DNA of 64,000 nt from Lysobacterales bacterium (GTDB lineage: Bacteria; Pseudomonadota; Gammaproteobacteria; Xanthomonadales; Wenzhouxiangellaceae): positions 1-64,000 of the forward strand of contig PBLG01000001.1 of the NCBI GenBank assembly GCA_002722315.1, in the 5' to 3' direction. Shown here piece by piece: positions 19,612 through 41,785 of the stretch (its first letter is position 1; each line of letters starts with the position of its first letter). Below the pieces are notes generated by a model. That model saw nothing but the letters and a program-made list of their open reading frames with translations. It was not told the DNA's origin and did no database searches. The translations under genes were made by a program, and so were the position numbers.

Positions 19612-21822
19612 TCATGAGTCACCCAGCAAGTCGCTCGCGGCCCGCGCCTCGGCGCTGGCCGGGGCGATCGCCCGAAGTGCACCCAGCGCCGCCCGGGCGG
19701 CGTCGCGATTACCCGCCCGTTGCTCGACGGTAATCAATGCGGCGTGGGCCTTCAAGTAGCCCGGCGCCAGCTCGATCGCCCTCCGGAAATACGCCGCGGC
19801 TTCTTCCAGCCGGGCGTCCTCGAACAGGAATGCGCCGTAGTTGAAGCTGGCCTTGGCGTAATAGGGGCCTTCCGCCAGGGCACGCCGGAACTCGGCTTCC
19901 GCCTGGTCCGGACGGCCGTTGCGGGCCCAGTGCACGGCGAGATCGACGCGTGCCGGCGCGAACTCGGGGTTTCGGCGCAGCGCGCGCTGCAGCGATTCCA
20001 GCGCGCGCTCGGGATTCCCTGTCTGCTGGTAGAAGCTCGAAAGCAGCCAGAGTGCCCGCGCACTTTCGGTCTTGCCGGAAAAGTCTTCGAGAATTTCGAT
20101 CGCGGCGCTGTGATCTCCCCGCTGGAAACGCTCCGCCGCCAGCTTCATCAGGAGTTCCGGCGAGACGGTACCGGTCGCCTGGAGCTCCCGGACGATTTCC
20201 CAGGATTCGTCGAGCTGGCCGGCGCCGGCCAGCGCCGATGCGTGGAGTTCGCGGTACATCGGGCTGTTGCCGTCGGTCTCGACCAGCTTGCGGGTGTAGT
20301 GCAGCGCGTCGATCGGTCGCTCCTTGAACAGGAGATGCTTGGCGGCGCTCATGCGATTCAGATCGGTCACGCGATCCTGTGGCGCGACCCCATCGTCGAG
20401 CAGCACTTCGCGGATCTCTTCTCCACCCTCGCCGCTACCGTGCAGATACCCCAGAGACTGCAGGCGCCTGACCAGCTCCGGCTCCAGGGCCTGCGTGGTG
20501 GCGGCCTGTTCGGCGGCATGCTCCTGGATGAAGACGGCAAGCGCCTCGCGCAAGCGCTGCGCCTCGCCAGGATCCGTCGAGCTAAGATCGGACAATTCAT
20601 CGGGGTCTGCGGAGAGGTCGTACAGCTCCGGCCGCGGGCCGTGAATGTACTTGTGATCCCCATCGTAGAGCACGCGTAACTCGCCCCAGCCGTGGGTAAG
20701 TCTCGGTGACAGGTTCTCTGCGTAGTACTGAGGCGTGTAAACCGATTCCTCTGCCGGACCGTCGGTGTCCCCGGACCAGAGCGACGTCAGCGATTGCCCA
20801 TGGATTTCGGCGGGTATTTCAATACCAAGAAGGTCAAGAATCGTCGGTACGATATCGACCGTACCCACGCGCGCATCGATTACCCGGGCCTGTTCCTGCC
20901 CGAGCCCCGGCGGGCGAATTATCAGCGGTACGTGCAGCGTCGAGTCGTAGGCCAGAACCGCGTGGGTGACTTCGTTGTGCTCGCCCAGGCCCTCGCCGTG
21001 GTCGGCCGTCATCACGATCAGCGTGCGGTCAAGCTTGCCCAGACGCTTCAATTGATCGAGCATGTGGCCAAGGCGTGAATCGGCATAGGCGATTTCGCCG
21101 TCGTACAGGTCGTCGGCGTAAAGCTGGTCGTAGGGCGGCGGCGGCTCGAACGGCTGGTGCGGGTCGAAATAATGCAGCCAGAGAAAAAACGGCTCCTCGT
21201 CCAGGTTATCAAGCCAGGGAATTACCGCTTCGTTAACCTGGGCGGCCCGACGTTCGTCGAAGAACATCTCCTTTTTCGGCGCGCGCTCGCCGAGATAGTC
21301 CTCGTACATCCCGGTCAGGTGGTCGTCGAACAGGTCGAAGCCCTGGTCGAAGCCGAAGCGGGAAATCACGGGAAAGGCGCCAACCGCCGCGGCCGTCGCA
21401 TAGCCGTGGTCGCCCAGGATTTCGGCCAGCGTCCGGTTTTGCTCGGAAAGCACGAACAGCCCGTTGTCCCGGACGCCATGACCGGTCGGATACAGGCCCG
21501 TGAGAATCGTCGAGTGAGACGGTGCCGTGATCGGTGCCACGCTCACCGCGTTGGCGAATCGGATCCCCTCATTGGCGAGCCCATCGAGCGCCGGCGTCTG
21601 GATTCGGTCGTTTCCGTAACTGCCGATTCGGTCGGCCCGGGTCGTATCGAAGGTCACCAGCAGGACGTTCCACGGCTGCGGCCGGGTTTCGCAGCTGCCG
21701 AGCAGCAGGGCAAGGGCGATCAGTGAAATGGCGCGGACGCCACGAAACCTCTGAAATGGGATCCGCGCAGCGTTGTTCACAGGTCTCCCGGTTCGCCGGA
21801 ATCGTTCGAATACTGAATTCAC
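19612..21822 (-). CDS. sulfatase-like alkaline-phosphatase-superfamily hydrolase with C-terminal TPRs, membrane/lipoprotein anchored
   Basis: NVLLVTFDTTRADRIGSYG, TAPSHSTILTGLYPTGHGVRDNG, TADHGEGLGEH; TPRs at the C-terminus. Confidence 0.85.
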   Translation of the reverse strand: MNSVFERFRRTGRPVNNAARIPFQRFRGVRAISLIALALLLGSCETRPQPWNVLLVTFDTTRADRIGSYGNDRIQTPALDGLANEGIRFANAVSVAPITAPSHSTILTGLYPTGHGVRDNGLFVLSEQNRTLAEILGDHGYATAAAVGAFPVISRFGFDQGFDLFDDHLTGMYEDYLGERAPKKEMFFDERRAAQVNEAVIPWLDNLDEEPFFLWLHYFDPHQPFEPPPPYDQLYADDLYDGEIAYADSRLGHMLDQLKRLGKLDRTLIVMTADHGEGLGEHNEVTHAVLAYDSTLHVPLIIRPPGLGQEQARVIDARVGTVDIVPTILDLLGIEIPAEIHGQSLTSLWSGDTDGPAEESVYTPQYYAENLSPRLTHGWGELRVLYDGDHKYIHGPRPELYDLSADPDELSDLSSTDPGEAQRLREALAVFIQEHAAEQAATTQALEPELVRRLQSLGYLHGSGEGGEEIREVLLDDGVAPQDRVTDLNRMSAAKHLLFKERPIDALHYTRKLVETDGNSPMYRELHASALAGAGQLDESWEIVRELQATGTVSPELLMKLAAERFQRGDHSAAIEILEDFSGKTESARALWLLSSFYQQTGNPERALESLQRALRRNPEFAPARVDLAVHWARNGRPDQAEAEFRRALAEGPYYAKASFNYGAFLFEDARLEEAAAYFRRAIELAPGYLKAHAALITVEQRAGNRDAARAALGALRAIAPASAEARAASDLLGDS

Positions 21823-23597
21823 GATTCCTCGAAAAGTGCGTCAAGCTGTTCCGCGGTGATTTCCGGTCCGGGACGTCCGACTGCCCGCAGGGTGCCCAGG
21901 CGTTCCGGAAACAATTCGAATCCGGCGGCGTCGAGAACTTCGCGCTCCAGGCTCTCGTACTCCTCGCTTGTGTACTGACGCAGAAAGGCTTCTGCCACGG
22001 CATCGCGGACTTCTTCGAACGAACGCGGCTCGAACTCGCGCCGCGCCACGACCTGGAACAGTGCAATGCCCTGCTCCGTGTTCAGCGGGGCCACCAGCTC
22101 GCCCTCGCCGGCGGGCGCAATCAGCGGCGGCAGCTTCGGATTGATGCCTCCGATCTGCCGCAAGGTATTCCAGCCGAGGTCATCGATCTCGCCACCGGTT
22201 TCACGCTGCAGTGCGTCCAGCCCGGGCGTGTCGGCCGCCGAGACCGCTTCCATCCTCGTCATCAGGGCCTCGCCCATCGCTGCATCGTCGTAGGCAACCC
22301 GCAAACGTCGCAAATTCCACTGTACCGCGGGCGTGAACTGCCCGATGTTGCTTTGATAGAAAAGCCTCAGTCGTTGCGGATCCGCGTCAACGCGATCGAG
22401 CAGGCGCTGCTCGCGCATTCGAGCGGTCAAGGCGTCGTCTTCCCAGATCGCCATCAGTCGGGCGACAGCGGTTTCATCGATGCGGCCTTCACGCTGACAT
22501 TGTTCGAAGACTTTTTCGTGGCGCAGCATTCGCTCAAGTGCGGCCCACGCCGCATCGGTGGATACCCGGCCGGAGACGCCGCTGCCGGGCGATCCCGGCC
22601 CAATCATGCTGCGGCCCAAACGGAGCCTGAATTGCGCCAGGGTCAGCTGGTAGTCCGGCGACATCAGCACGGGGTCCTGTTCACCGCCTTGCTCAATCAA
22701 TCGGTTCAGCTCGTCACGGTCGACAATGCGCGCGGTCGGCGTTGCATTCAGGGCAGCGATTTCGTCCAGCGCTCCGCTCACCGATGCGGCTTCGAGCTGT
22801 GCCCGCAAGCTGGGTGCGACCTCCTGGAGGGTTGCCTTGCGCGCGGGAAGGATCTCGTCGACCTGAAAAAGATGCACGCCATCCGCCGAGACCAGGGGGC
22901 GGCTGGGAACGCCTTCTTCAAGTGAAAACACGATGTCCTCGAAGGTCTGGGGCAACTGCCCGCGAACAACCCAGCCGATGCTGCCCTGGCGATGGCGGCT
23001 CTCCGAATCGGATTCGCTTTGCGCCAGGCGCTGAAAGTTTTCGCCGCGGAGAATGCGCTCGCGCAGTTCCAGCATCGCCGATTCAGCCTCGGATTCTTCC
23101 TCTCCCGGTTCGAGCCGTTTGTAGATGTGAAACGTGGAGCGACGCTCCGGCGCCTGAAGTTGCTCGGCGCGAGCCTCGTACTCGGCACGGATTTGTTCTG
23201 CGGAGACATCGCCTGCTTCGGGCGCCAATTCGGCCAGACACGATTGCACGGCCAGTTGCCGACGGACGGCGGTCTGGCGCAGCCGAAAGTCGTCGGTGTC
23301 CGCCAGGCCTGTCTCCCGGGCTTCGACCAGGAGCCGGCGGTCAACGACGAGGGTGCGAATCAGTTGGTCGTACCAGGCGTCGAGATCTTCCCCGGGCGCC
23401 GGCCGTTCGCCCGCGGGCAGCGCGAGAATATGGGCATCGATGTCGCTGATCGTGACGGTGCCGCCGTCGAAACGGGCCACAACGCCTGCGGCGGGCGCTG
23501 CACCGGGGCTTCCCGGCACGGCGGTATCAGTTTGCTGGGTGTCCTGACAGCCACACAATGCTGCCGTCATGCCCAGCAGCATGAGCAAACGCTTCAT
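21819..23597 (-). CDS. parvulin-type peptidyl-prolyl isomerase lipoprotein
   Basis: Lipobox ALCGCQD; FQRLAQSESDSESRHRQGSIGWVVRGQLPQTFEDIVFSLEEGVPSRPLVSADGVHLFQV; 4-bp overlap with 21822. Confidence 0.82.
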   Translation of the reverse strand: MKRLLMLLGMTAALCGCQDTQQTDTAVPGSPGAAPAAGVVARFDGGTVTISDIDAHILALPAGERPAPGEDLDAWYDQLIRTLVVDRRLLVEARETGLADTDDFRLRQTAVRRQLAVQSCLAELAPEAGDVSAEQIRAEYEARAEQLQAPERRSTFHIYKRLEPGEEESEAESAMLELRERILRGENFQRLAQSESDSESRHRQGSIGWVVRGQLPQTFEDIVFSLEEGVPSRPLVSADGVHLFQVDEILPARKATLQEVAPSLRAQLEAASVSGALDEIAALNATPTARIVDRDELNRLIEQGGEQDPVLMSPDYQLTLAQFRLRLGRSMIGPGSPGSGVSGRVSTDAAWAALERMLRHEKVFEQCQREGRIDETAVARLMAIWEDDALTARMREQRLLDRVDADPQRLRLFYQSNIGQFTPAVQWNLRRLRVAYDDAAMGEALMTRMEAVSAADTPGLDALQRETGGEIDDLGWNTLRQIGGINPKLPPLIAPAGEGELVAPLNTEQGIALFQVVARREFEPRSFEEVRDAVAEAFLRQYTSEEYESLEREVLDAAGFELFPERLGTLRAVGRPGPEITAEQLDALFEES

Positions 23598-23621
23598 TCG
23601 AAACCTGCCAGAGACTGCGGC

Positions 23622-24443
23622 TTATTCGATCCCGTACTCGATGAGTTCTACCGGCAGGATGTTGCCGCTGGCCCGTACGAGGCTGTTGAGCGTTCCGCCG
23701 AAATCGAAGGTGCCGGTGATGTTGGGGCCCTGGCCGCCGGTATAACCGACCACGCCATGGTGGCCCTGGCCGTTGGTGGTACCGGTGCCGAAGGCCGGTA
23801 CGTAAACGCTGGCGAAATCACCGAACAGTACGAAGAAGCTGCTGCCGGTGTAGGCGGCATTGATGCCAGAGAAGGTAACGGTTTCGGTCGTGGCCGTGCC
23901 CGGTGCGGTGAACGTGCTGAAGATGGCCATGGCGCCGCCGCCAACGGTCTGCGGACCCTCAATCACGAAACCGGCTGAGCTGGACGTGAAGGCCGGACCT
24001 TGAACGACGACCGCCTGCACCTGGGTCACGCTGCCGCTTGCCAGTACCGGTACGCCGGTGTGGGTATTGAAACGGTTGCCGATGATGGCGCCGCCGCCGA
24101 ACGTGGTGCCACCCACGCCGTCGTCGTAGGTGATGGTCCCTGGCGCCCGATTGGCCGCCGCGGTGCTGCCGCCTTCGCCACCCGATTGATTCTCAGCCTG
24201 CCGGTAGAAGCCGTCGGCCGGCGGCGTCGCGTTATTTTCGGCCCGATCGGCCTGCTTGACGGCGAACCAGATGCCACGTCGCTCATCGGGCGTCATGGCC
24301 TGGATCGCAGCTTTTCGCTCGGCCCGGCTCATGGCCTGGAGTTCGGCAACCCGACTCTCGAAGCCTGCGTCATTCGCCCAGGCAGGCGCGAGCGCAACAA
24401 CAAGGAAAAGGCTGGATACAGCTAGAATCCTGACGGTGATCAT
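23622..24443 (-). CDS. exported protein of unknown function
   Basis: Signal peptide MITVRILAVSSLFLVVALAPAWA; Gly/Thr-rich beta-like; C-terminal LPVELIEYGIE. Confidence 0.6.
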   Translation of the reverse strand: MITVRILAVSSLFLVVALAPAWANDAGFESRVAELQAMSRAERKAAIQAMTPDERRGIWFAVKQADRAENNATPPADGFYRQAENQSGGEGGSTAAANRAPGTITYDDGVGGTTFGGGAIIGNRFNTHTGVPVLASGSVTQVQAVVVQGPAFTSSSAGFVIEGPQTVGGGAMAIFSTFTAPGTATTETVTFSGINAAYTGSSFFVLFGDFASVYVPAFGTGTTNGQGHHGVVGYTGGQGPNITGTFDFGGTLNSLVRASGNILPVELIEYGIE

Positions 24444-24638
24444 TCTCGGTTTCCCTCTATTCAGCCTCTCTGGTTCAAGGCCTTTGATGTGCGCAAATTC
24501 CAATGGAGCAGCGGCCTTTTGGAATCCGGCGCACTGACGATGGGCAATCTAGCGCATGGACGGTGGCGTGTCAACGACGGCGGCGAAGCGGGTGCGCGCC
24601 ACGGCACATATCTTTTCAGGCACTAATTCAATAAACTC

Positions 24639-26417
24639 ATGCATCCAGCAACGCGCTTCCCGAAAGGCCTTTTTCCCGAGATGTCAGGTTCTCCGTGCCG
24701 ATCCCCGGACGACGTTTCGCGCCATGTGCCCGGCGACGCACCGGCCCGTCGACGGAACGCGTTGGTAGGCGTGTCGAGTTCCCTCATGGTGTGTTTGGTC
24801 GCCATCCTCTTGCTCGCCGGCTGCGGCGAAGCGGTGGACCCGGGCCCTGAACCCCGTCGCCCTCCGGGCTTCGACCAGCTCGAACCCGCGGTGCAGGAAC
24901 AATTTGTCGAGTTGCTGGACCGGCTGGCCCGGGCGCGTGCGGATGCTGCACCGGCCCCCGAGATGGGCCGGGCATGGGGCGAGTTGGGAAAATGGTTCGA
25001 TGTATATCGCTTTCCCGATAGCGCCATGCACTGCTACCGGCAGGCGGCGCGGCTCGATGCCAATGAGCCACGCTGGTCCTACTACCTGGGCCTGTTGGCG
25101 GTCAACGATGGCGATCTGGATCTGGCCGTCGCCGCATTTGAAACCGCGGAGCGACTTGCACCCGAGTCGATCGCCGCACCAATGCAGCTGGCCGAGTTGA
25201 AGCTCAAGCGTGGCCAGGCCACGGAGGCGGGGGAACACTACCGCCGCGTTCTGGATACGGAGCCAGGCAATCTGGCCGCCTCTCTCGGTCTGGCACGCCT
25301 CCATCTGCAGAACCATGAAGCAGATCTGGCGCTAGAGCTGCTGAAACCGCACCTCGGCGACGAAGCGCGGGTGCCCGCCGAACTTCGCTACCTGGCCGCG
25401 CAGGCCCATCGCCTGCGCGGGGACGCGGAACTTGCTCGACGGCAGCTCGACCTTTTGCCCGAAGACCACGGCGACAGGACGCCGCTCGGCGTTCAGGATC
25501 CATGGCGCAACGAGCTGATGGCGATCAAGGTGAATTCCAATCACCTCACTCGGCTCGGCATCCGAGCCTCCCGCCAGGGCAATTTTCGCCTGGCGGCGCG
25601 CTATTCCGGCAGGGCGGCAGCGCTGAATCCGGACAACGCCGAACTTCGCACCAATTACGCCGCGTCGCTGCTGGCCCTCGGCCGAGCCGGAGATGCGCTG
25701 GAACAGGTCGACAAGGCGTTGGCGCAGGACCCGAATCTGGCGCGCGCCTACCTGGTTAAAGGCGGTGTCCGCCTGCGCCTCGGCGACCGGTTGGGCGCTC
25801 GTGAGGCATTCCTGGGCGCGTTGGCACTTGACGGCGGCCTGAAGGATGCGCGCCGTCATCTCGGGCGCATCTACCAGCAAATGGGCGAAACCGAACTGGC
25901 GATCGATCAATACGCTGAACTGCGCAAACGGTATCGGGAGGCTCACCAGGCGCGTTTCTGGCACGCGGCGTTGCTGGCGTCCCTGGGACGATTCGATCAG
26001 GCGATGGCCGCGCTGGACGCCGACCTCGAGGTGCACCCGCAAAGTCCGTTGCTTCGGCTTCTCAGGGTCCGGATACTCGCAACGGCGTCCGGTAAATCCT
26101 CGAGTGGCCCGGTCGAGGCAGCCGCACTGTTTGCCGGGCTGGCGCCATATGAGCATGACGTCTATTCAATCGAATCGGCAGCCATGGTTGCCGCAGCGCT
26201 GGGCTACCATGCCGACGCCGTCGAACTGCAGCGAAGAGCGATTGCCGTACTGGAGACACTGCCGGAAGGCGAACCAGCCCGTATCGCCCGCCGCCGCCTG
26301 GTGCTGTATAGCGAGCAGAAAGCCTGCCACACGCCTTGGCAGCGCGGCGAACTGTTGATCACGAAGCCGGTTGACGCGCCGATCGGCACCCAGGAATGGA
26401 TGGAAAGCCCGCATTGA
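24639..26417 (+). CDS. TPR-repeat lipoprotein
   Basis: Lipobox LLLAGCGE; successive TPR motifs; start may be internal (24786). Confidence 0.82.
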   Translation: MHPATRFPKGLFPEMSGSPCRSPDDVSRHVPGDAPARRRNALVGVSSSLMVCLVAILLLAGCGEAVDPGPEPRRPPGFDQLEPAVQEQFVELLDRLARARADAAPAPEMGRAWGELGKWFDVYRFPDSAMHCYRQAARLDANEPRWSYYLGLLAVNDGDLDLAVAAFETAERLAPESIAAPMQLAELKLKRGQATEAGEHYRRVLDTEPGNLAASLGLARLHLQNHEADLALELLKPHLGDEARVPAELRYLAAQAHRLRGDAELARRQLDLLPEDHGDRTPLGVQDPWRNELMAIKVNSNHLTRLGIRASRQGNFRLAARYSGRAAALNPDNAELRTNYAASLLALGRAGDALEQVDKALAQDPNLARAYLVKGGVRLRLGDRLGAREAFLGALALDGGLKDARRHLGRIYQQMGETELAIDQYAELRKRYREAHQARFWHAALLASLGRFDQAMAALDADLEVHPQSPLLRLLRVRILATASGKSSSGPVEAAALFAGLAPYEHDVYSIESAAMVAAALGYHADAVELQRRAIAVLETLPEGEPARIARRRLVLYSEQKACHTPWQRGELLITKPVDAPIGTQEWMESPH

Positions 26418-26439
26418 CGATTCAGATGGATTCCAGCGA

Positions 26440-28248
26440 ATGAACCGCTATTTGCCGAGAGTCTCGGCGGCGTGTCTTGCCGTGGTGCTGCTGGCCGGCT
26501 GCGGCGATGACCGCGATGCCGACTCGTCGCCGATGATCTCCGACGCCCGGCCGCAGCGGACCGACGAGCGCGCCCGGCTTGTCGACGTCGCTGATCAGGT
26601 CGGCCTCGGCTTCACACACGACAATGGCATGAGCGGTGACCTGTATTTCATCGAACCGGTCGGCTCGGGCGCGGCACTGGTCGATTTCGACAACGACGGC
26701 GACCTGGACGTGTTGCTGGTGCAGGGCCAGAGGCTTCCGGCCGCTGCTCCGAATTCGCCGATGCCGGCCGAACCCCCCGAGGCTGCCCTCCGCTCGCGCG
26801 TGTTCCGCAATGAGCTCGTGCACGCGGATGGTACGCGCGGGGAACTGCGGTTTACCGACGTCACCGAGTCCAGCGGCCTGGTGGCGACTGGCTACGGGAT
26901 GGGCGTGGCCGCGGGCGATATCGACAACGACGGTCGTATCGATGTCTATCTGACCAATTTCGGCGCCAACCAGCTTTGGCGCAATGTCTCCGACGCTTCC
27001 GGCATCCGTTTCCAGGACGTAACCGAGCGATCGGGCACCGGTGATGCACGCTGGTCGACCAGCGCCAGCGTTGCCGATCTGGACGGCGATGGCCTGCTCG
27101 ATCTATACGTGGCCAACTACGTCAATTTCCGCTTCGAGAATCACAAGACCTGTCGGACGCCCGGTGGACGCCCAAACTATTGCGGCCCCCAGTCCTACCA
27201 GGGCGAACCCGACAGCATGTTTCTCAACAAGGGAGAGCTGAGGTTCGAGGACGTTTCCGGCCGGGCCGGGATACTGGGGTCGCCATCCAGCGGTCTGGGC
27301 GTGGTCACAGCGGATTTCGATCGGGATGGTCATCTCGATATCTATGTTGCCAACGATCTGCAGCCCAACTTTCTGTGGCGCAACCTCGGCGCCGATACCC
27401 CGGGTTTCGAGGACGTGGCTCTGCTCAGCGGCAGCGCCGTAGCCATGGACGGTCGCGCGCAGGCGTCGATGGGGCTGGTCGCGGGCGACATCGACAACGA
27501 TGGGGACGACGATCTATTCATGACCCATTTGCGCACCGACAGCAACACGCTGTATCGCAACGACGGATCGGCCGGCTTTATCGATGCCTCCTTTACCAGC
27601 GGCCTGGGCGCGCCCAGCCTGGCCGTTACCGGTTTCGGTACGGTACTGATCGATCTCGACAACGACGGCTGGCTTGATATCGTGACCGCCAACGGCGCCG
27701 TGGCCATCATCGAAGAGCAAGCGCGGCAGGGCAGTCCCTATCCGCTTGCCGAGCCCAATCTGGTGTTCTACAACACCGGTGGCGGCGACTTCATCGACAT
27801 CACAGACTCGGCCGGCGGTGAACTCACGAGACTCGAGGTCAGCCGGGGACTGGCTGTCGGCGACATCGACAACGACGGGCGTAGCGACATTCTGCTGAGC
27901 AACAACAACGGTCCGGCCCGGCTGTTGATGAATCGCACGCGCACGGATCATCACTGGCTTGGCCTGAGACTGCTGACCGCGGGTGGAACGCGCGACGCAC
28001 TGGGTGCGCAGGCAACGGTATTCCTGAGCGACGATCGGCGTCTTTCGCGTCGCGCGGCGACCGACGGCAGCTATCTTTCCGCCAGCGATCCCCGGGTACT
28101 GTTCGGACTCGGCGACGACGACCAACCGGTCACGGTCGAGGTCAGGTGGCCGGGGGGAGGGGTCGAGCAGTGGCAGGGACTTTCACCCGGTCGGTATCAT
28201 GAGCTCGAAGCCGGGACCGGCACACCCGTGGAGACCGCAACGCGATGA
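26440..28248 (+). CDS. CRTAC1-family lipoprotein (FG-GAP/VCBS repeats plus ASPIC/UnbV domain)
   Basis: DFDNDGDLDVLLVQG, DIDNDGRIDVYLTNFG, DLDGDGLLDLYVANY repeats; C-terminal ALGAQATVFL...YLSASDPRVLFGLG. Confidence 0.9.
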   Translation: MNRYLPRVSAACLAVVLLAGCGDDRDADSSPMISDARPQRTDERARLVDVADQVGLGFTHDNGMSGDLYFIEPVGSGAALVDFDNDGDLDVLLVQGQRLPAAAPNSPMPAEPPEAALRSRVFRNELVHADGTRGELRFTDVTESSGLVATGYGMGVAAGDIDNDGRIDVYLTNFGANQLWRNVSDASGIRFQDVTERSGTGDARWSTSASVADLDGDGLLDLYVANYVNFRFENHKTCRTPGGRPNYCGPQSYQGEPDSMFLNKGELRFEDVSGRAGILGSPSSGLGVVTADFDRDGHLDIYVANDLQPNFLWRNLGADTPGFEDVALLSGSAVAMDGRAQASMGLVAGDIDNDGDDDLFMTHLRTDSNTLYRNDGSAGFIDASFTSGLGAPSLAVTGFGTVLIDLDNDGWLDIVTANGAVAIIEEQARQGSPYPLAEPNLVFYNTGGGDFIDITDSAGGELTRLEVSRGLAVGDIDNDGRSDILLSNNNGPARLLMNRTRTDHHWLGLRLLTAGGTRDALGAQATVFLSDDRRLSRRAATDGSYLSASDPRVLFGLGDDDQPVTVEVRWPGGGVEQWQGLSPGRYHELEAGTGTPVETATR

Positions 28249-29873
28249 AAAATGGCGCTCACCCGCGGACCTGGCGCTTGTCATCGGTGGCGGTCGTCGC
28301 GGTTGCCGCGGCGCTTGCCCTCCAGGCCTGCGGCGACCCTTCATCCGGTACGGAGCCTGTCGCGGTCTGGGACGGCGGTGAACTCGAACGAGAGCGATAC
28401 GAAAATTGGCTCGACTCTCATAACCTGGAACCGTCGCACGAGTCGGCTCGAAATCTCGCGTTGATCGTGTCGATGGCTGCCGCGGCGCGCCATCGCGGGA
28501 TGGATGACAGCGCCGAGGTGCTCCTGTCGGTCGAAGCCATGCGCCAGGCCAGACTTCTGCCCGCGCTCAATCGGCATGTCGATGCTCAGGTCTCGATATC
28601 GGACGAAGAGCTCGAGCAACTCGCCGACGCAAATCCGGATGCCTTCAAACGGCCGCGCAAGCTGCTTCTGCGCGGCATATTCAAGCGCCTGCCGACAGAT
28701 GGCGCCGAGCGCGACCAGGTGCGTCGCGAAATGCTGGCGTTGAGGGCTCGGGTGCAGGACGGGGCCGACATCAAGCCGCTGGCGGTGAACGAATCCGAGT
28801 CGCAGAATCGCTTCCGCGAGGGAAGCATCGGCTTCGTCGATCCCGATGCCCTGCCAGTGCCGGTTCGCGACGCGGTCGAGGGTCTCGAAATCGGCGAGGT
28901 CAGCGAATTGATCGAACACGCCGGTGGGCTGGCGTTCTACTTGTGTGAGCGCATCAGCCCCGAAGTCATTCCCGATGCCGACGAGGTGCGATTCAAGTTC
29001 CGTCAGAACCTGTTTCGCCAGCGCAGAGCCGAGTTGAACAGGGTGCTGCTGAAGGAGCTCGATGCGCAGGTCAGGGTTCGCCTGGAACAGGATCCGGTAC
29101 TTCAGGCCGGTCGCTACGAGCTACCCGCTGGCTGGATCGACGATCTGATCCGTCATCGGTTGCCGGACCGCGATCCTGGATCGCTGACCGACCGACAAAA
29201 GCAACGCTTGCTGCGTGAATGGGGCCGGCGGGTGGCCATGACCGATCATGCCGAAGGACTCGGCCTTGTCGACGCCGAGGAACTGGCCGATGCGATGCGC
29301 TGGAACCTTGTCCACGCACTGGCGACGACCGAATTGCGATTCCGGGTCGACGAACGCCTGAGACCGCCGGTCGAGAGCGAGCTGCGTGCGCTCTACGAGC
29401 AGCGGCGGATGAGGATGCGCAACCCGCCTGCATATCGGGTTGCGGCAATCCAGTTTGCCGGCGTCGCGGGTCGGGACGACCGAGAAATTATCGGCCGGGC
29501 GCGTGATGCCGCTGCGCGAATCCGCGGCGGCGCGCTGGACTTCGGCCTGGCCGCGCGCGAACTTTCCGTTCACCCCTCCGCGAGCAACGGCGGCATGCTC
29601 GGCTGGATGACTTCGCGCGAACTCGGGGCACTCGAGATGGGTCTGCTCAAGCCGATGCGCGTACTGGCACCGGGCGAGGACTCGGGCCTGTTGCGGGCAC
29701 CCAGCGGCCTGTGGCTGGTGAGATTGCTCGAGCGACGGGCGGCCACGCCCATGACCTTTGCGCAGGCGCGCGGGAAGCTGGAAGGCGTGTTCGAGCGCGA
29801 CCAGATCGAGCGACTGGAGTCCGAAGTCCGCGAACAGCACCGGGCGGACATCAACCTGCGGATCCTCGAGTAG
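28245..29873 (+). CDS. parvulin-type peptidyl-prolyl isomerase lipoprotein
   Basis: Lipobox LALQACGD; two parvulin-like segments; ATGA overlap with the CRTAC1 gene. Confidence 0.75.
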   Translation: MKNGAHPRTWRLSSVAVVAVAAALALQACGDPSSGTEPVAVWDGGELERERYENWLDSHNLEPSHESARNLALIVSMAAAARHRGMDDSAEVLLSVEAMRQARLLPALNRHVDAQVSISDEELEQLADANPDAFKRPRKLLLRGIFKRLPTDGAERDQVRREMLALRARVQDGADIKPLAVNESESQNRFREGSIGFVDPDALPVPVRDAVEGLEIGEVSELIEHAGGLAFYLCERISPEVIPDADEVRFKFRQNLFRQRRAELNRVLLKELDAQVRVRLEQDPVLQAGRYELPAGWIDDLIRHRLPDRDPGSLTDRQKQRLLREWGRRVAMTDHAEGLGLVDAEELADAMRWNLVHALATTELRFRVDERLRPPVESELRALYEQRRMRMRNPPAYRVAAIQFAGVAGRDDREIIGRARDAAARIRGGALDFGLAARELSVHPSASNGGMLGWMTSRELGALEMGLLKPMRVLAPGEDSGLLRAPSGLWLVRLLERRAATPMTFAQARGKLEGVFERDQIERLESEVREQHRADINLRILE

Positions 29874-29891
29874 TTTTGCGCCCGCACAGAG

Positions 29892-30323
29892 TTATTCAGA
29901 GGTTCCCCGGGAATCCGGCGGTTGCTTGGGTGGGGCTTCCATTATGGGCGTGAACCGTTTTCGCTTGCCGCTCAGCGAGATGCTCTCGACGTAGTAGAAG
30001 TAAGCCGTGTCGGCTTCGATTCCATCGTCCACGAACCGGTAATCCCTGGGGAGGTCGGTGGTGCCTGCACCGAGCACCGGCTGCGGCGTGATGCGTTCAT
30101 AGGGGCCGTCGCGTTGCTCGGCCCGATACACATCGAAACCGAAATTATCGGATTCACTGGCGGTGGACCATTTGACGGTGTTGGTGAGCCGATGCCCGGT
30201 GGGTTCATGCACCGGCGCGCCGGTGCATGCCGCCATCGTCAGCGTCGCAGCGGCCATCAACAGCCGGGCCAGGCCGGTCCCCCGGGGGATTCGCAGCAGC
30301 CTCGTGCTCGCCCGGCCGCTCAT
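29892..30323 (-). CDS. small lipoprotein with Fn3-like domain
   Basis: LTMAACTGAP lipobox; VKWSTASESDNFGFDVYRAEQRDGPYERI...YFYYVESISLSGK; 4-bp overlap with 30320. Confidence 0.7.
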   Translation of the reverse strand: MSGRASTRLLRIPRGTGLARLLMAAATLTMAACTGAPVHEPTGHRLTNTVKWSTASESDNFGFDVYRAEQRDGPYERITPQPVLGAGTTDLPRDYRFVDDGIEADTAYFYYVESISLSGKRKRFTPIMEAPPKQPPDSRGTSE

Positions 30324-32179
30324 TGCGCGACCGCAGCTCGCCGAACGATCATTTCCCGATCCAACCCGGTGACCGGGTGGCGGCTCTCCGCGCCGTCCGG
30401 CCAGGTCACGACAACCTCGACCGGGTGCCGGTCGGCGCCCAGGCCGAAGACCGCTGCCGGCATGACCTGTGCCTGGTAGCCGCGGGTCGGCATGATGCTC
30501 TGCCGCGGCGACGCGGCGGCGTCCAGACGTATGCTGGCGCCCAGCGCGGCCCGGTTCGGGCCATCCTGTTCGAGACGGACGCGCAGCCATCGATTGCCGG
30601 TCTGCTGATCGTTGCGCAACAGGACCGGCGGGCCGCCGACCTGGGTGATAAGAATGTCGAGATCCCCGTCGGCATCGATGTCGGCATAGGCCGCAGCGCG
30701 GCCGGCCAGCGGACGCTGCAGGTCGCCTTCGCCGGCGAGCAGAAACCGGCGCGGACAATCATCGCCGCAGTTCCAGAACAATTGTGGGGGCTGTTCGTAG
30801 GCCTGGCTGGGCTGGACCTTGTGAATCTCCCGCTCCAGGTGACCGTTGGCCTGAAACAGGTCGAGCCGTCCGTCCAGGTCGGCATCGAAGAAAAACACGC
30901 CGAAGGTCAGCGCCAGCCGGCTGGGCGGTCCGATGCCGCTGGTCGAGGACTGGTCGGCATAGAGTTCCGGGGTGCCCTGCGAGAGATAAAGCGACGTCAT
31001 CTCGCCGGCGAAGTTGCCCATCGCGATGGCTCTTCGCGCGACCCCGCCGAGCATGGCCGTATCCATGCCCATCGCGCCGGTCGCGTGGCCGTCGGGATCG
31101 AAGGCCAGGCCCGTCTCGACGCCCAGTTCCTCGAATTTGCCGCCGCGATTGAGAAACAGGAAATTGCGCACCGTGTCGTTGGCCACGACCAGGTCCAGCC
31201 GGCCGTCCTCGTCGATGTCCACCGGAATGACGGCCAGCGCCTTCCCTTCCGGGCGCCCGTTGACCGGGTGCGAGACCTCGATGCCGGCCGACCCGCTGAC
31301 GTCGCTGAAGCGACCGTTACCGTCATTCCGGTAAAGCCTGTTGTGCCGGCCCGCGTAGTTGGTCGGCGGGCCGAAGGCGCGCCCGATGCCGGTCAGGCGG
31401 TAATCCACTGACAGGTCGATGTCCAGCGACCATTCGACGTAATTGCAGACGAACAGGTCGAGGTCGCCGTCGCCATCGGCGTCGAAGAATGCCCCGCAGG
31501 TACTCCAGTCGGTGTTTTCGCCTGCGACCCCGGCCGCGTCGGTGACGTCGGTGAAGCGGCCGTTGCCGAGGTTGCGGAACAACCGATTTTCCCCGACCGC
31601 GGCGATGAACACATCCGGCCGGCCGTCGCCGTCGAAGTCGCCGACGACCGGAGCGGTCGCGTAGAAGCTGGTATCCAGTCCGGAGCCGTCGGTCGCGTCG
31701 ATGAAGCTGCCATCGCCCCGGTTGAGATAAAGCCGCTGGGTGGGCCGGCTGCGATCGGCCGAATAGTCGTGCCATGGCCACAGGTCGCCGTTGGCCAGAA
31801 GCAGGTCCGGGTCTCCGTCGCCGTCGAAATCGGCGAACGCCGCCCCGCTGCCCATGGTCTCGGGCAGCAGCTTGAGCCCGTAGGCACCGTTTTCATGCAC
31901 GAAATCGATCCCGGACCCAGCGGTGATGTCTTCGAACGGCAGACGGGGCGGCGCCGGCGTTGCCGGGTCGTCCTCCGGCAGGCGGGTGGCAAGCGCCGGT
32001 TCCGCCTCGGCAAGCGCATCGGGTGGCGGCGTTCGGCTGAACCACCAGGCGCCCACGCCGGCCAGGAGGCCGGCAATGCCGATCACCGCGATCGACCACC
32101 TGACGGCGGTGCCGATCACCCGGTCGTCGTCGGCCACCCATTCTTCCTTCGGTGTATCGGTTCGTTCGTTCGGCGTCAT
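30320..32179 (-). CDS. CRTAC1-family protein (VCBS repeats plus ASPIC/UnbV), membrane anchored
   Basis: N-terminal TM; DFDGDGDPDLLLANGD, DFDGDGRPDVFIAAVG, DADGDGDLDLFVCNY; RLEQDGPNRAALGASIRL. Confidence 0.9.
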   Translation of the reverse strand: MTPNERTDTPKEEWVADDDRVIGTAVRWSIAVIGIAGLLAGVGAWWFSRTPPPDALAEAEPALATRLPEDDPATPAPPRLPFEDITAGSGIDFVHENGAYGLKLLPETMGSGAAFADFDGDGDPDLLLANGDLWPWHDYSADRSRPTQRLYLNRGDGSFIDATDGSGLDTSFYATAPVVGDFDGDGRPDVFIAAVGENRLFRNLGNGRFTDVTDAAGVAGENTDWSTCGAFFDADGDGDLDLFVCNYVEWSLDIDLSVDYRLTGIGRAFGPPTNYAGRHNRLYRNDGNGRFSDVSGSAGIEVSHPVNGRPEGKALAVIPVDIDEDGRLDLVVANDTVRNFLFLNRGGKFEELGVETGLAFDPDGHATGAMGMDTAMLGGVARRAIAMGNFAGEMTSLYLSQGTPELYADQSSTSGIGPPSRLALTFGVFFFDADLDGRLDLFQANGHLEREIHKVQPSQAYEQPPQLFWNCGDDCPRRFLLAGEGDLQRPLAGRAAAYADIDADGDLDILITQVGGPPVLLRNDQQTGNRWLRVRLEQDGPNRAALGASIRLDAAASPRQSIMPTRGYQAQVMPAAVFGLGADRHPVEVVVTWPDGAESRHPVTGLDREMIVRRAAVAQ

Positions 32180-34932
32180 GGCGTGCCGCGATCGATCTTC
32201 GGCGGGTTCAGCGGATAGATCACTATATCGTCCGCGGCGTGGTCGGCGGCCGGATCGCGCGCCCGTGCGATCGCAATGGCCCGGTCACGCGCGTTGTCGT
32301 CGATGCGGTATTTACGATGCAGCTCGGCGTGCTCGTCGGCGGACGCGCGCTCGCCGCGCATGCGCAGTACCTGGGCCAGTCCATAGTGGCTTTCGGCCCG
32401 CTCGGGGTCGATCGCCAGCGCGCGCTCGAACCAGGATCGTGCCTGTGCGAGCGCATCGTCCCGCGTCGAGCCGGGCGACGCCAGGCGAGCGCGCTCCAGC
32501 CATGCCTGGCCCAGCTGATCCAGAAGCCTGTAGTCGCGACTGAAATCGAAACCGCGAGTCCTCGCTTCCTGGTAACGGGTCTGTTCGAGATCCGTCCAGA
32601 TTGCTATCGCGTCCTCCACGAAGCCGTTCTGCCGGTTCAACTCGCCGGTCCAGTAGGCCACCGCCCAGGGATAGGCGGGATGCTCGCCGCCGCCGGCTTG
32701 CGCCAGCGCGGCGGCCGCTGCCTCGAGGCGTCCGTCTTCGAGGCGGGTGCGCGCGAGGTTCAGGAATCCCAGGCCGCGCCCCATCCCGGCGACCTGCTCG
32801 AACGCAGCCTCGGCCTGGCGAAGTTGCCCGGCGCGCAGCAAGCCGATGCCGTAATCGTTCCAGCGCATCCACAGCGGCGCCTCGGTGCTCGGGTTGCGGG
32901 CCGACGCGACGCCGCCCACCACGGCCTGCGCCTCGCCCAGTACCGTCACGGGCAGGTCGTTTCGTACGAACGCGTCGCCCTGCACCTGGCGCATCATCAC
33001 GGTATCGAACTTGCGGTAATTGACCCGCGCGGTCAGCGTCAGGGGCATGTCCTCGGGCATCGACTCGGGCAGCGTCAGCGCGTAGTGAAGCGTGGCTGCT
33101 GCGCCCGGCGGGATCTGGTGGTTGTACAACGGGGTGAATATGTCTTCGGCGTTGCGTCCATCGATGCGGTTGCCGTCCCGGTCGAGCATGTAGACGTTGA
33201 TCCGGTGGGCCCGGGGATCGACGCTGCCGTCGCCGGCGTCGGCGGCACCCGAATGGCCGATCACTTCGCCGCCGGCCCGGGCGACGAGTTCGACCCAGAG
33301 CTCGTTGGAATCGGCGGTGCCCTGGGTCAGGGGATGCCCGAGCGTGAGCGTGCGGATCACGATCTCGACCAGGTAGCGTCCGCCCGGTTCGAGCGTGGCG
33401 GACTCGACGCTGTCGGGTCCCAGCAACTCGCCACCGATGTCGTGGCCCCGACGCAGTCCGAAGATGTCCACGCGTACCGAGTCCTCGAGCATCTTCCGGT
33501 GATTGGCGTTGACCCAGTCGGGCATGCCGAGCATGTGCGGTATCGCGGTGTTGGCCGAGGCGAACTGGTGGTCGTGGATGGTCAATTCGCCGTGCTCGTC
33601 CGGCGCGGCGCCGAAGTCGTCGGAGACCATCCGCGGCATGTGGCAGCCGTTGCAGTTCTTCTCCGCCCGGTCCGGGTAATAGAAGCTGGTGACGCCGTGG
33701 CCGGATACGCCGGACAACAGGAAGGAGTCGTAATGATTCTGTCCGCGAAGCCACTTGTAGTCGTTCAGCGCTTCGGGCAGGTGCACCTTGTGGCAGCTGC
33801 CGCAGAACTCGGTGGATCGATGCAGCGGCTTGAGAAAGGTCTTCTTGTGAAAGCCGGGCTTGGCCTTGACCAGCATGCGATTCAGCCACTTGAGAAAGCG
33901 GTTTTCGCTGTAGGTGAACGGGTAGTGCAGCGGGGCTTCGACGGTGTAGTCGGCGTTGCCGCGCGGCGAGTTGATATGGGTGATGGCGTGACACGCCGAG
34001 CAGGTGATCCCGGCGGTCGCCGTCGGGTGATTGACGTCGTCGAAATCGGGATCGTCGAAGGCGCCCGAAAAGAACGGCACCGGGTCGTGGCATCCGGCGC
34101 AGAAGCGGCTGCGCTGGACGTTGCCGTCGCGCGCCATCGAAAATTGTCGGGTATTGCGCACCGAAAAACGGTAGACCGGATTGTTGAACGAGGCGAATCG
34201 GTGCATCGAGTGCGCCCACTGCTCGTGCGTGTCGGCATGGCATTCGCCGCAGTAGGTGTCGTTCATGAGATCCCGTGCCGGGATGAAGTCTCCGCTGGCC
34301 GTGCGCGCGAGCGAGGGCTGAAAATACTGCTCGCCTTCGGCCGGCCCGGTTCGTCCCCACTGGCGCGGGTCCTGCATCTGGGCGGCGAGCATGACCGCCG
34401 CGAACAGCGCGCCGCCGGCCAAGATCGCCCCGCCGACCCGCCAGTTGATTCGTTTTCCGGCGAGTCGATGCAGCACGAACAGCCAGACAACGGCGAGCCA
34501 GCCTGCCACGTGGAGCCAGTAGGCAGCTTGGCGCGCCGCAGGTGCGCGCAGTTCCAGCAGCGGCAGACCCCGAGTCAGGGCGAGTCCGCTGGCCAGCAGC
34601 ACCAGGGCGCAGGCCAGCAGGGCGTAGCCCACCTTGACGGCGCGCCGGTTCGGCCGGTCGTGCGCGTTTCGGACATGCTGGATGCCGTAGACGATGACCG
34701 GAACGATCAGCAACAGGCCCAGCCCCAGGTGCGCCAGGAACATGTACTGGTAGAAGTAGTCCTGGAAGACCTGGCCGCTGGCGGCTTCGGCAATGCGGAT
34801 CGTGAGCAGGTAGAGACTGTTGACCGAAATCAGCGCGAACAGCGCGAACAGTGCGAACAGCAGGATGCGCAAACGCGGCCCGACGGCGGGCACATAGCGT
34901 CGCAGTCGCGGCTGTCCCGGGGAATCCTTCAT
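32176..34932 (-). CDS. membrane pentaheme cytochrome c fused to C-terminal TPRs
   Basis: Four N-terminal TMs; CGECH, CAGCH, CSACH, CGSCH, CNGCH; TPRs at the C-terminus; 4-bp overlap with 32179. Confidence 0.87.
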   Translation of the reverse strand: MKDSPGQPRLRRYVPAVGPRLRILLFALFALFALISVNSLYLLTIRIAEAASGQVFQDYFYQYMFLAHLGLGLLLIVPVIVYGIQHVRNAHDRPNRRAVKVGYALLACALVLLASGLALTRGLPLLELRAPAARQAAYWLHVAGWLAVVWLFVLHRLAGKRINWRVGGAILAGGALFAAVMLAAQMQDPRQWGRTGPAEGEQYFQPSLARTASGDFIPARDLMNDTYCGECHADTHEQWAHSMHRFASFNNPVYRFSVRNTRQFSMARDGNVQRSRFCAGCHDPVPFFSGAFDDPDFDDVNHPTATAGITCSACHAITHINSPRGNADYTVEAPLHYPFTYSENRFLKWLNRMLVKAKPGFHKKTFLKPLHRSTEFCGSCHKVHLPEALNDYKWLRGQNHYDSFLLSGVSGHGVTSFYYPDRAEKNCNGCHMPRMVSDDFGAAPDEHGELTIHDHQFASANTAIPHMLGMPDWVNANHRKMLEDSVRVDIFGLRRGHDIGGELLGPDSVESATLEPGGRYLVEIVIRTLTLGHPLTQGTADSNELWVELVARAGGEVIGHSGAADAGDGSVDPRAHRINVYMLDRDGNRIDGRNAEDIFTPLYNHQIPPGAAATLHYALTLPESMPEDMPLTLTARVNYRKFDTVMMRQVQGDAFVRNDLPVTVLGEAQAVVGGVASARNPSTEAPLWMRWNDYGIGLLRAGQLRQAEAAFEQVAGMGRGLGFLNLARTRLEDGRLEAAAAALAQAGGGEHPAYPWAVAYWTGELNRQNGFVEDAIAIWTDLEQTRYQEARTRGFDFSRDYRLLDQLGQAWLERARLASPGSTRDDALAQARSWFERALAIDPERAESHYGLAQVLRMRGERASADEHAELHRKYRIDDNARDRAIAIARARDPAADHAADDIVIYPLNPPKIDRGTP

Positions 34933-35054
34933 GCGGCGGCCGGGCCGCTGCCTCGCCGGCGCCGGCTCGCGGGGCAGTGGTCCATGCGGTTGCCCGGCAG
35001 GTTTCCGAATGTTGCAGCGGGCTGGGTCATCGAAACGGGGGCTTGAAACGTTGG

Positions 35055-35094
35055 CAGAGTATATGCCGGTAAATCACTCAGTACGTATACTCTG
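35055..35094. promoter_or_regulatory. inverted repeat CAGAGTATA-N22-TATACTCTG in divergent promoter region
   Basis: Perfect 9-bp arms between starts 34932(-) and 35179(+). Confidence 0.5.
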
Positions 35095-35178
35095 GCTCGA
35101 CTCGATGATTGATCGGCGCCGCGCCCGTTGGCCGCGATAGTGTCAACAATCGTAGTGGCAATCGTCGGACCTTTTCGA

Positions 35179-38100
35179 ATGGAGTGGATGACCATGTTTG
35201 GAAGCAGCCGGCGCGTGATTCTCGCGGTCTTCGTGATCCTGGCCGGTGCAGTCTGGGCGCAGGACGAGAAAGATCCCGACGGTCGGATCGAAGACGGCAC
35301 CTCGGCCTTCTATTCGGGGCTGGCTGCGCTGGAGATGGGTTTGTTCGAGCGTGCCGCCGCCGACTTCGGGCAGGCAGCGCAGCTGCTCCCCGAAGAGCCG
35401 GCGATCCAGGCCAACCTCGGGGTGCTCGCAATGCGCCAGGGCGAGGACGCCCGTGCGCGGGAACTCTTCGAGAGTGCCCGTTCCATGGCGCCGGGAAGCG
35501 CCGATATCGCGCTGCTGATCGGCTTGCTCGAAAGACGCTCTGGCAATAGCGATGCCGCAGCGGCGTCCCTGCAGCGCGCCGTCAGGCTGGCACCGGAAGC
35601 GCTGAAGCCCCGCTACGCACTGGCGACGACTCTCGCCGAGGCCCCGGGGGATCGTTACCAGGGCCGAATCCGGGCGCTTCTTGCCGGCCTGGTTGTCGAT
35701 GCGCCGGACAACCTGGCGCTGCGCCTGGAACAGGTACGATTCCTGGCCTCCACCGGCGACCGCGAGGCGCTGGCGGAATCGGTCGAAAGCCTGGCGGCAA
35801 TGTCACGGGACTGGCCTGAAGCCGCTACTGCACAGCTCCAGACCCTGCAGGCGGTGGCGGCCGAACCGGACCAGGCCGCGGTGCGGGCGACCGTGCTGCG
35901 CAACGTCCTGCTGCGCTCCGAGGATTACCGCGAAAGCCTTGCGCGTATCCAGGTTTCGGCACAGGCCGGAGGCGAAGCGATCGATCGGCTTCTCCGGGTG
36001 CCGGCCCCGCCGTCGAGGCCGGCACCGGCGGACACGGCGCTGGTTTTCGGGCCGGCCACGCCTTACGGAACGCGAGCGAATAACGCGGATATCCTGGTTC
36101 TCGATGCAGCCGGGGCGGGTGCGATCGTTCCGGCCGGCCGCGAGGGGCTGGCGGGCGCCTCGCGGGTTTCCCTGCCGGGAATGGAGGAAATTCGCGAACC
36201 AGCCGGAATCGTGGCCGTCGACCTGGACAACGACGGCCGCCACGAACTTGTCGCGGCCACCGACCGGGGTTTGCGAATCTTCCGCCGGGATGAAGCCGGG
36301 ATGTTCGACGCTTTCGATGCGGCGCTCGAGGAGTCCGTGGAGGCTGGTCGCTACAGCGGCGCCTGGGCTGCGGACCTGGAGCTCGACGGCGACATGGACC
36401 TGGTGCTGGGCGCGGTCGAAGGCCCCCCGGCCGTGCTGCAGAACAACGGCGACTGGACGTTCACCACCCGCGACGCGTTCGAATCGGTCGATGGGCTGCG
36501 TGGATTCGTCTGGGCCGATCTCGATGGCGACGGCCTGCCGGATGTCGCGGCGCTGGATTCGAGCGGAACCGTCAGAGTATTCGGCAATGCCAGGGCGGGT
36601 TCCTGGGCGCTTGAAGAAACGATGGACGGCGACTTCGTGGCGCTGGCCGCCGCCGATTTCGACTGGGACGGGCGCATCGACCTGGCGCTTCTGGCCGGCG
36701 ACGGAAGCCTGATCCTGCATTCCGAAGGGCGCTCGAAATCGCCTGGTCGATGGACCGACATGCCGACCGACGTCGTCCTGGGACAGGCCGGGCTGTTCGC
36801 CGCCGACTTCGACAACAACGGCGCACCGGACCTTCTGGCGGCGGCCGGCGAGCGCTCCCGGGTCTGGCTGACCGAGTCGGACGGCACGCTGAAGCCGCTG
36901 GGGTCGGCCCCGCCGCTTCGCACCGCCGCGGTCGCCGATCTCGATCGCGACGGCCGCCTCGACCTGGTCGGTCTGGATGCCGACGGCCGGATCGTCGAGG
37001 CGACCGGTTCCGGGGCGCTCGACTACGGTTGGCAGGCGATTCGCCCGCGCGCGCTCGAGAATGCCGGCGACAATCGGATCAATACCTACGGCCTCGGCGG
37101 ACAGCTGGAAGTGCGCTCCGGCCTGGTCGTGCAGCGCCAGGTCATCGACGGCCCCGAACTCCACTTCGGCCTGGGGTCGCGGGAAGGGGTCGACGTGGCA
37201 TGGATCCTGTGGCCCAACGGTTCGAACCAGGCCGAGTTCGATCTCGCGCCCCGGCGGACCGTGGAGGCGGTCCAGCGTCTGAAGGGGTCGTGCCCGTGGC
37301 TGTTCACCAACGACGGCCAGGGCATGCGGTTCGTCACCGACTTCCTGTGGCGGTCGCCGCTGGGTATGCGCATCAACGCGGTGGACACGGCCACGATCAC
37401 CCAGACCGAGGATCGGGTACGCATCCCCGGAGACGCGCTGGCGCGGCTGGACGGAGGCTACGAACTGCGGATCACCGCGGAACTCTGGGAGACGCATTTC
37501 ATCGACGGCGTTTCGCTGCTGGCCGTGGACCGCGCGCCCGGAACCGCTATGTTCGTGGACGAACGCTTCGCCCGCGCGGAACCGCGCCTCGATCCGGTGT
37601 TCACGACCGACCCCCGCCCGGTCACGCGCGTGGTCGACGACCGGGGCCGTGACTGGACGGACCAGGCGCGCGAGGTCGATGCGCGCTACGTTGCCGGACT
37701 GGAGCTGTCCCGTTACCAGGGGCTGACGCGGCCGCATCATGTCGAGATCGACCTGGCCGAAGCCGGGCTCGACGAGCGGTCGGTGTTGCTGGCGACCGGC
37801 TGGATCTATCCCACCGACAGCTCGATCAACGTCGCGGTCGCCCAGGGCGCGAGCGAGCGTCCCGGCAGTCTGCGTCTCGAAGTGCCGGACGGTCGCGGCG
37901 GATGGGTCGTCGCGCGCCCCGATCTGGGCTTTCCGGCCGGCAAGCACAAGACCATGGTGATCGACCTGGAAGGGCTCTTCGGTCCCGATACGCCGCGCCG
38001 CCTGCGGCTGGCCACCAACCTGGAAATCTACTGGGATCGGTTGGCCGTGGCCGAGCGCGTGCCGGATTCGTCCGGGTCGGTCACCGCGATGAGCATGGCC

Positions 38101-38574
38101 GTCGCGGACTTGCGCTATCGCGGGTTCTCCGAAACGCTGACGCCGACCAGGGCCCACCCGGAAGTGCCCGTCTACGACCGGCTGCAGGGCACCGGCCAGC
38201 GCTGGCCCGACCTCGTCGGGTACCACACCCGGTTCGGTGACGTGCGAGAGCTGCTCGCCGGGCCCGACGACCGCTACGTGATCATGAACGCCGGTGACGA
38301 GATCGTGCTGCGCTTTACCGGCCCGCCGCCGGCCGAGGGCCTGGTGCGCGATTTCGTGCTGGTCGGCCACGGCTGGGTCAAGGACGGGGACTACAACACC
38401 GCGTTCTCCCGAACGGTGCTGCCGCTGCCCACGCGCGAAAGCGGGCTGTACGAAACGCCGCCCACGACGCTGGAGGACGACCCCGTGTATCAGCGCAATG
38501 CCGAGGACTGGATACGATTCCATACCCGCTACGTGCAGCCGTCGGAATTCCTGTCCGGTCTTCGTCGGCCTTGA
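35179..38574 (+). CDS. large exported TPR + VCBS/CRTAC1-like protein
   Basis: Signal peptide VILAVFVILAGAVWAQ; N-terminal TPRs; DLDNDGRHELVAATDRG, DLDGDGLPDVAALD, DFDNNGAPDLLAA repeats; ASPIC/UnbV-like LRSGLVVQRQVIDGPELHFGLG. Confidence 0.82.
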   Translation: MEWMTMFGSSRRVILAVFVILAGAVWAQDEKDPDGRIEDGTSAFYSGLAALEMGLFERAAADFGQAAQLLPEEPAIQANLGVLAMRQGEDARARELFESARSMAPGSADIALLIGLLERRSGNSDAAAASLQRAVRLAPEALKPRYALATTLAEAPGDRYQGRIRALLAGLVVDAPDNLALRLEQVRFLASTGDREALAESVESLAAMSRDWPEAATAQLQTLQAVAAEPDQAAVRATVLRNVLLRSEDYRESLARIQVSAQAGGEAIDRLLRVPAPPSRPAPADTALVFGPATPYGTRANNADILVLDAAGAGAIVPAGREGLAGASRVSLPGMEEIREPAGIVAVDLDNDGRHELVAATDRGLRIFRRDEAGMFDAFDAALEESVEAGRYSGAWAADLELDGDMDLVLGAVEGPPAVLQNNGDWTFTTRDAFESVDGLRGFVWADLDGDGLPDVAALDSSGTVRVFGNARAGSWALEETMDGDFVALAAADFDWDGRIDLALLAGDGSLILHSEGRSKSPGRWTDMPTDVVLGQAGLFAADFDNNGAPDLLAAAGERSRVWLTESDGTLKPLGSAPPLRTAAVADLDRDGRLDLVGLDADGRIVEATGSGALDYGWQAIRPRALENAGDNRINTYGLGGQLEVRSGLVVQRQVIDGPELHFGLGSREGVDVAWILWPNGSNQAEFDLAPRRTVEAVQRLKGSCPWLFTNDGQGMRFVTDFLWRSPLGMRINAVDTATITQTEDRVRIPGDALARLDGGYELRITAELWETHFIDGVSLLAVDRAPGTAMFVDERFARAEPRLDPVFTTDPRPVTRVVDDRGRDWTDQAREVDARYVAGLELSRYQGLTRPHHVEIDLAEAGLDERSVLLATGWIYPTDSSINVAVAQGASERPGSLRLEVPDGRGGWVVARPDLGFPAGKHKTMVIDLEGLFGPDTPRRLRLATNLEIYWDRLAVAERVPDSSGSVTAMSMAVADLRYRGFSETLTPTRAHPEVPVYDRLQGTGQRWPDLVGYHTRFGDVRELLAGPDDRYVIMNAGDEIVLRFTGPPPAEGLVRDFVLVGHGWVKDGDYNTAFSRTVLPLPTRESGLYETPPTTLEDDPVYQRNAEDWIRFHTRYVQPSEFLSGLRRP

Positions 38575-39914: not shown

Positions 39915-39930
39915 GCACAAGGGAAAGACG

Positions 39931-41783: not shown

Positions 41784-41785
41784 TC

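Follow-up and report, generated by a model that had tools for sequence, protein, structure and literature searches.

An inner-membrane pentaheme cytochrome, which we call MHC5, and a CRTAC1-type propeller protein, CRT2, make up a real, conserved and apparently undescribed redox pair, which this genome joins to a second module of exported proteins. The genes lie in a window of 64,000 nucleotides (the whole stretch of DNA that was analysed), which is part of contig C8 of a draft genome of 3.53 Mb that is 85% complete. The initial annotation interpreted positions 19612-38574 as one surface-associated machine and named the lack of a conserved neighbourhood in related genomes as its refutation. That refutation fails, because a conserved neighbourhood was found, but the neighbourhood falls into two units. 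We think it probable that two envelope modules, each conserved separately, meet in this interval: module A, an inner-membrane redox unit, and module B, a set of exported proteins. We found no description of the MHC5-CRT2 pair in a search of the open-access literature that mostly left subscription journals aside.

Gene content of the interval

Module A comprises MHC5 (32176-34932, minus strand) and CRT2 (30320-32179, minus strand), with a large protein, GIANT (35128-38574, plus strand; likely ATG at 35179), as a frequent third member. MHC5, CRT2 and a small FN3-like lipoprotein gene (FN3; 29892-30323, minus strand) are chained by two 4-bp overlaps, exactly the cassette first described. Module B comprises FN3, which belongs to it in the related genome G009, together with a C25 peptidase, a DUF11-repeat protein, the alkaline-phosphatase-superfamily lipoprotein SULF, the parvulin proteins PPI1 and PPI2, a 273-amino-acid exported protein (x273), and a TPR lipoprotein paired with the CRTAC1 lipoprotein CRT1. 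A Pfam search supports the assignments of parvulin, TPR, FG-GAP plus UnbV_ASPIC, Cytochrome_C554 and sulfatase-superfamily domains, and the annotated genes and 4-bp overlaps are present, that of SULF given a GTG start.

By inspection, all but three of the products encoded between 19612 and 38574 carry an export signal or lipobox, close to the original statement that nearly all are exported or lipidated. The exceptions are MHC5 and CRT2, both of which appear to be anchored in the inner membrane, and PPI1, a probable lipoprotein with an atypical lipobox. The recurrence of the same domain types was also taken as a sign of one machine; this is weak evidence, because TPR, FG-GAP and PPIase domains belong to large paralogous families.

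A conserved cytochrome-propeller pair

A search with MHC5 as query found a close homolog in about 24 of 121 genomes from the order, and a scan of GTDB species genomes yielded more than 560 relatives. The best 80 of these span at least five phyla, including Pseudomonadota, Planctomycetota, Verrucomicrobiota, Acidobacteriota and Latescibacterota. At E <= 1e-100, MHC5 was found in 0 of 391 good Pseudomonadota genomes, a rough lower bound on prevalence across the phylum because only two candidates were scored per genome. The nearest named relative, a Lysobacteraceae metagenome-assembled genome (L066), has an MHC5 that is 85% identical and the same MHC5-CRT2-FN3 arrangement facing PPI2-CRT1. Two Wenzhouxiangella loci are also among the relatives, and the cultured carriers (Rhodopirellula, Stieleria, Roseiconus and Wenzhouxiangella) put the pair within reach of experiment.

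Genes in relatives were called with a home-made codon model, and 95 MHC5 loci, those with more than 1.2 kb downstream, were testable. In 88 of the 95, a CRTAC1 gene in the same direction comes directly 3' of MHC5, and tblastn added one more. The two genes overlap in half of these pairs (44 of 88), by exactly 4 bp in 29 of the 44. On a tree, the MHC5-adjacent CRTAC1s cluster together (4 label changes, versus 26 in shuffles), such that the neighbour is nearly always a member of one dedicated clade. Distances among MHC5 and CRT2 proteins are correlated (r = 0.89; permutation maximum, 0.17), in part through shared species history. Two adjacent CRTAC1s fall among CRT1-like proteins; their owners are probably short MHC paralogs of genomes G112 and G077. 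In these genomes (loci L055 and L060), the short paralog has no TPR arm, its first heme motif is CX4CH, and it shares an operon with GIANT, hydrolase, CRTAC1 and TPR genes.

Planctomycetes, verrucomicrobia and acidobacteria carry many CRTAC1 (FG-GAP/UnbV) proteins, and to our knowledge most have no known function. That one dedicated clade keeps its place next to a membrane cytochrome gene across five phyla or more suggests a testable role, as a partner of quinol-linked electron transfer. CRT2 and CRT1 both have FG-GAP repeats and score 44.3 and 57.2 bits, respectively, for UnbV_ASPIC (cut-off, 23.4). A lipobox is absent from CRT2 and from all of its relatives (0 of 84), and in 81 of the 84 a short conserved leader is followed by a strongly hydrophobic stretch at the N terminus. 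We therefore consider it most likely that CRT2 sits in the inner membrane with its propeller in the periplasm, rather than being a surface lipoprotein. CRT1 is a lipoprotein of a separate clade.

MHC5 combines b-type and c-type heme motifs

The initial annotation correctly described MHC5 as a pentaheme protein with TPRs, but missed five transmembrane helices with four invariant histidines at its N terminus. This diheme-b-like region is followed by a pentaheme c554-like domain, a beta-sandwich and a C-terminal TPR arm, an order that is reproduced in an AlphaFold2 model (mean pLDDT, 88.3; N-terminal helices at residues 19-52, 59-90, 96-119, 131-157 and 164-185). Across 44 sequences, all five CxxCH sites are invariant, as are H68 and H86 in the second transmembrane helix and H141 and H155 in the fourth; in the model, these pairs lie on helices 59-90 and 131-157. 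MHC5 thus has the four conserved membrane histidines, paired on two helices, of a diheme cytochrome b quinol dehydrogenase. Judging from helix alternation, the pairs may sit near both membrane faces, as in diheme cytochromes b, and the spare conserved histidines of MHC5 would be enough for bis-His hemes. The protein is predicted to be seated in the inner membrane and to face the periplasm, at odds with the surface location first assumed for MHC5 and CRT2.

MHC5 matches the Cytochrome_C554 family (PF13435) at 31.0 bits (cut-off, 20.8), and 44 of 44 relatives match at E <= 0.1. In a sequence search of the PDB, its first heme segment resembled pentaheme cytochrome c552 (5ze8, E = 4e-5) and, weakly, the multiheme selenoprotein MccSep. 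We rejected NrfA, the cytochrome c nitrite reductase, as an identity for MHC5, since each of its five sites reads CxxCH and a CxxCK catalytic heme site is missing. When MHC5 and GIANT were compared by fold as whole proteins, TPR and propeller matches prevailed, which leaves the MHC5 heme domain and the GIANT C-terminal domain unplaced.

Two other large proteins are encoded in the window. The first (2236-5883, minus strand; 1,215 amino acids) has six CxxCH motifs, matches MtrC/MtrF domain and ExtKL models weakly, and lies about 26 kb from MHC5; it may be a cytochrome of the outer membrane or the cell exterior. The second (57026-60469, minus strand) has choice-of-anchor Q and CSLREA domains.

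Genes flanking the pair

Around MHC5 in the order, the genes usually run hydrolase, GIANT, MHC5 and CRT2, and in many cases another CRTAC1 and a TPR gene come next. GIANT consists of a signal peptide, TPRs, an FG-GAP propeller and a C-terminal domain of about 400 amino acids without a Pfam match; its UnbV_ASPIC score was 21.4 bits in one search and 25.8 in another, on either side of the cut-off of 23.4. Its relatives, which are 22-30% identical to the window copy, lie at many loci, usually upstream of MHC5 and mostly co-directional with it; the window GIANT is divergently oriented relative to MHC5. Directly upstream of GIANT, many relatives' loci, including some from Planctomycetota, have a hydrolase that is closest to formamidase, with a score far below the cut-off. 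The window genome has no close homolog of this hydrolase, the best match being distant (33%).

The MacAB-like exporter that was noted next to GIANT is there, as HlyD, ABC and two FtsX genes 3' of GIANT (38670-42943), but it is not a conserved partner. One weak HlyD match aside, no homolog occurs beside MHC5 loci in the order, and we therefore rejected it as a member of the system. Related ABC genes at 7 of about 105 clustered loci, window included, carry little weight because the family is too common. Nor is it a true MacAB, in which the ATPase and the MacB permease are fused in one protein: here the ABC ATPase and each of the two FtsX/MacB permeases have a gene of their own (39871-42943).

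Module B

The conserved cluster begins further to the left than the annotated interval, at the C25 (gingipain-type) peptidase gene (15494-17941, plus strand; PF01364, 255.6 bits). The next gene encodes the DUF11-repeat protein (18012-19352, minus strand), the IPTL-CTERM-like C terminus of which scores 20.4 bits against TIGR04174 (cut-off, 20.5); a search of the draft genome, 85% complete, revealed no exosortase. SULF (19612-21822, minus strand) overlaps PPI1 (21819-23597, minus strand) by 4 bp when its GTG start is used, and the corresponding genes abut in G009. They are followed by x273 (23622-24443, minus strand), which has no Pfam or NCBIfam match. The proposed cassette of TPR lipoprotein (24639-26417), CRT1 (26440-28248) and PPI2 (28245-29873, with two parvulin domains), all on the plus strand, has the stated order and the 4-bp overlap of CRT1 and PPI2, which recurs in G009; CRT1 starts at ATG 26440, 22 bp after the TPR gene.

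PPI1 has strong homologs in eight genomes, that of the window among them, and each adjoins a SULF homolog. Within the order, module B has a patchy distribution, and it is rarer than the module A pair. G009 has C25, DUF11, SULF, PPI1, x273, TPR, CRT1, PPI2 and FN3 in the same order and orientation as the window, uninterrupted by MHC5-CRT2, which lie on another contig; its CRT1 and PPI2 orthologs are 69% and 55% identical to those of the window. The six other genomes (G037, G083, G008, G010, G082 and G113) have subsets of the module in other orders. The marker x273 was found in 7 of 200 genomes of the order, and five of its six matches outside the window genome (G009, G037, G083, G008 and G113, leaving G559) lie within a module B locus. 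We rejected its C-terminal PVEL as a sorting signal, since the single match in the genome is x273 itself. In f9 genomes, a fused MFS/spermidine-synthase-like gene lies beside module B (G083:C44:181519-184536 and L179:7802-10897).

SULF was annotated as a TPR-sulfatase, and its TPRs and superfamily stand. Its nucleophile motif is T-A-P-S-H, with threonine also present in the four orthologs in which the motif was found; this replaces the Cys or Ser of C/S-x-P-S-R and speaks against a formylglycine sulfatase. Given the threonine, we regard SULF as a probable phosphohydrolase or transferase within the alkaline-phosphatase superfamily. The C25 peptidase is present in module B of G009, G083, G010 and G008. 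Across the order, C25 genes as such are present in 40 of 121 genomes, the window copy being a gingipain-type peptidase in a gammaproteobacterium. The most likely role of module B, guessed from domain names, is in the folding, trimming or modification of surface proteins.

Relationship between the modules

MHC5 occurs in 7 of 8 genomes with module B versus 17 of 113 others (Fisher, 3.8e-5, kinship ignored). Within the two main families the association is borderline (p = 0.058 and 0.069, with family sizes taken partly from the genomes listed). The modules form one contiguous stretch in the window genus and do so a second time in G083, from another family, where they span about 33 kb (contig C44, 170.7-204.1 kb), with a phosphodiesterase-like gene, CRTAC1s and a TPR gene between them. 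Because of this co-occurrence and the contiguity in G083, a shared role is possible. One integrated machine for redox-linked maturation or modification of surface proteins nevertheless seems doubtful to us: in G009, G037 and G008 the modules are found on different contigs or 1.7 Mb from each other, many genomes and phyla hold module A with no sign of module B, and MHC5 and CRT2 remain coupled across at least five phyla without parvulin or sulfatase genes. A more specific version is slightly less probable still. In it, MHC5 would pass quinol-derived electrons to surface proteins that are bound by CRTAC1 propellers and matured by the parvulins, the C25 peptidase and a Thr-type transferase, with MHC5-CRT2 as the ancient core and a new class of redox system.

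Proposed function of the MHC5-CRT2 pair

In our best reading, MHC5-CRT2 is a quinol-linked conduit for electrons that docks on a calcium-type propeller. Quinol would be oxidized at the diheme b helices, with H68/H141 and H86/H155 as the candidate heme sites, and electrons would then pass through the five periplasmic c hemes. CRT2, as a membrane-anchored calcium-type propeller, and the TPR arm of MHC5 may together form a periplasmic docking platform for an acceptor. The direction from quinol to periplasm is a guess that we only slightly favour. Electrons could just as well run the other way, from a periplasmic dehydrogenase through MHC5 to the quinone pool, since five hemes with enough conserved histidines would suit that too.

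It is unlikely, in our judgement, that MHC5 is instead a reductase or dehydrogenase that acts on a small nitrogen or sulfur compound at a catalytic heme, with the formamidase-like hydrolase supplying or removing the substrate. The CxxCH-W-S-H motif shared with cytochrome c552 and MccSep, the hydrolase gene upstream of GIANT, and the CRTAC1 gene that adjoins hydrazine-synthase homologs (PMC12758564) would fit such an enzyme; the uniform CxxCH motifs, the absence of hydrazine synthase and NrfA from the best 60 of 70 PDB matches (E <= 1) and the lack of a close hydrolase in the window genome argue against it. Ordinary paralogy, in which common TPR, FG-GAP and PPIase families happen to lie together in a lipoprotein-rich genome and form no system, is very improbable. 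Such domains are abundant, and the links to FN3 and the exporter are not general, yet the neighbourhood data already oppose this explanation: chance adjacency would hardly produce MHC5 with a dedicated CRTAC1 clade in five phyla, or the gene order of module B. It is tenable for the exporter alone.

Comparison with known systems

Hydrazine-synthase-like loci resemble module A in having a CRTAC1 gene beside cytochrome genes; MHC5 itself differs from hydrazine synthase, with no similarity among those best 60 PDB matches. For module B, the closest known family is that of PorU and the C25 gingipains, with which the window protein shares the peptidase domain. We rejected it as the T9SS sortase PorU, as its NF033707 score (194 bits) is far under the cut-off of 420.

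With the pentaheme c552 (5ze8) and c554 (PF13435) proteins, MHC5 shares the first heme segment and its CxxCH...W..S.H motif. Those proteins are shorter chains, to which MHC5 adds b-type transmembrane helices, a beta-sandwich and TPRs. The membrane quinol:cytochrome c oxidoreductases of extracellular electron transfer include CbcL, ImcH, CymA and NetD (PMC9012536, PMC6085454), systems that have been termed mutually nonhomologous (PMC9012536). What MHC5 would have in common with these is a membrane quinol-site module joined to a periplasmic multiheme c domain. In its b-type diheme domain, MHC5 resembles CbcL-like proteins in layout; it is set apart by its five c hemes, its TPR arm and its dedicated CRTAC1 partner.
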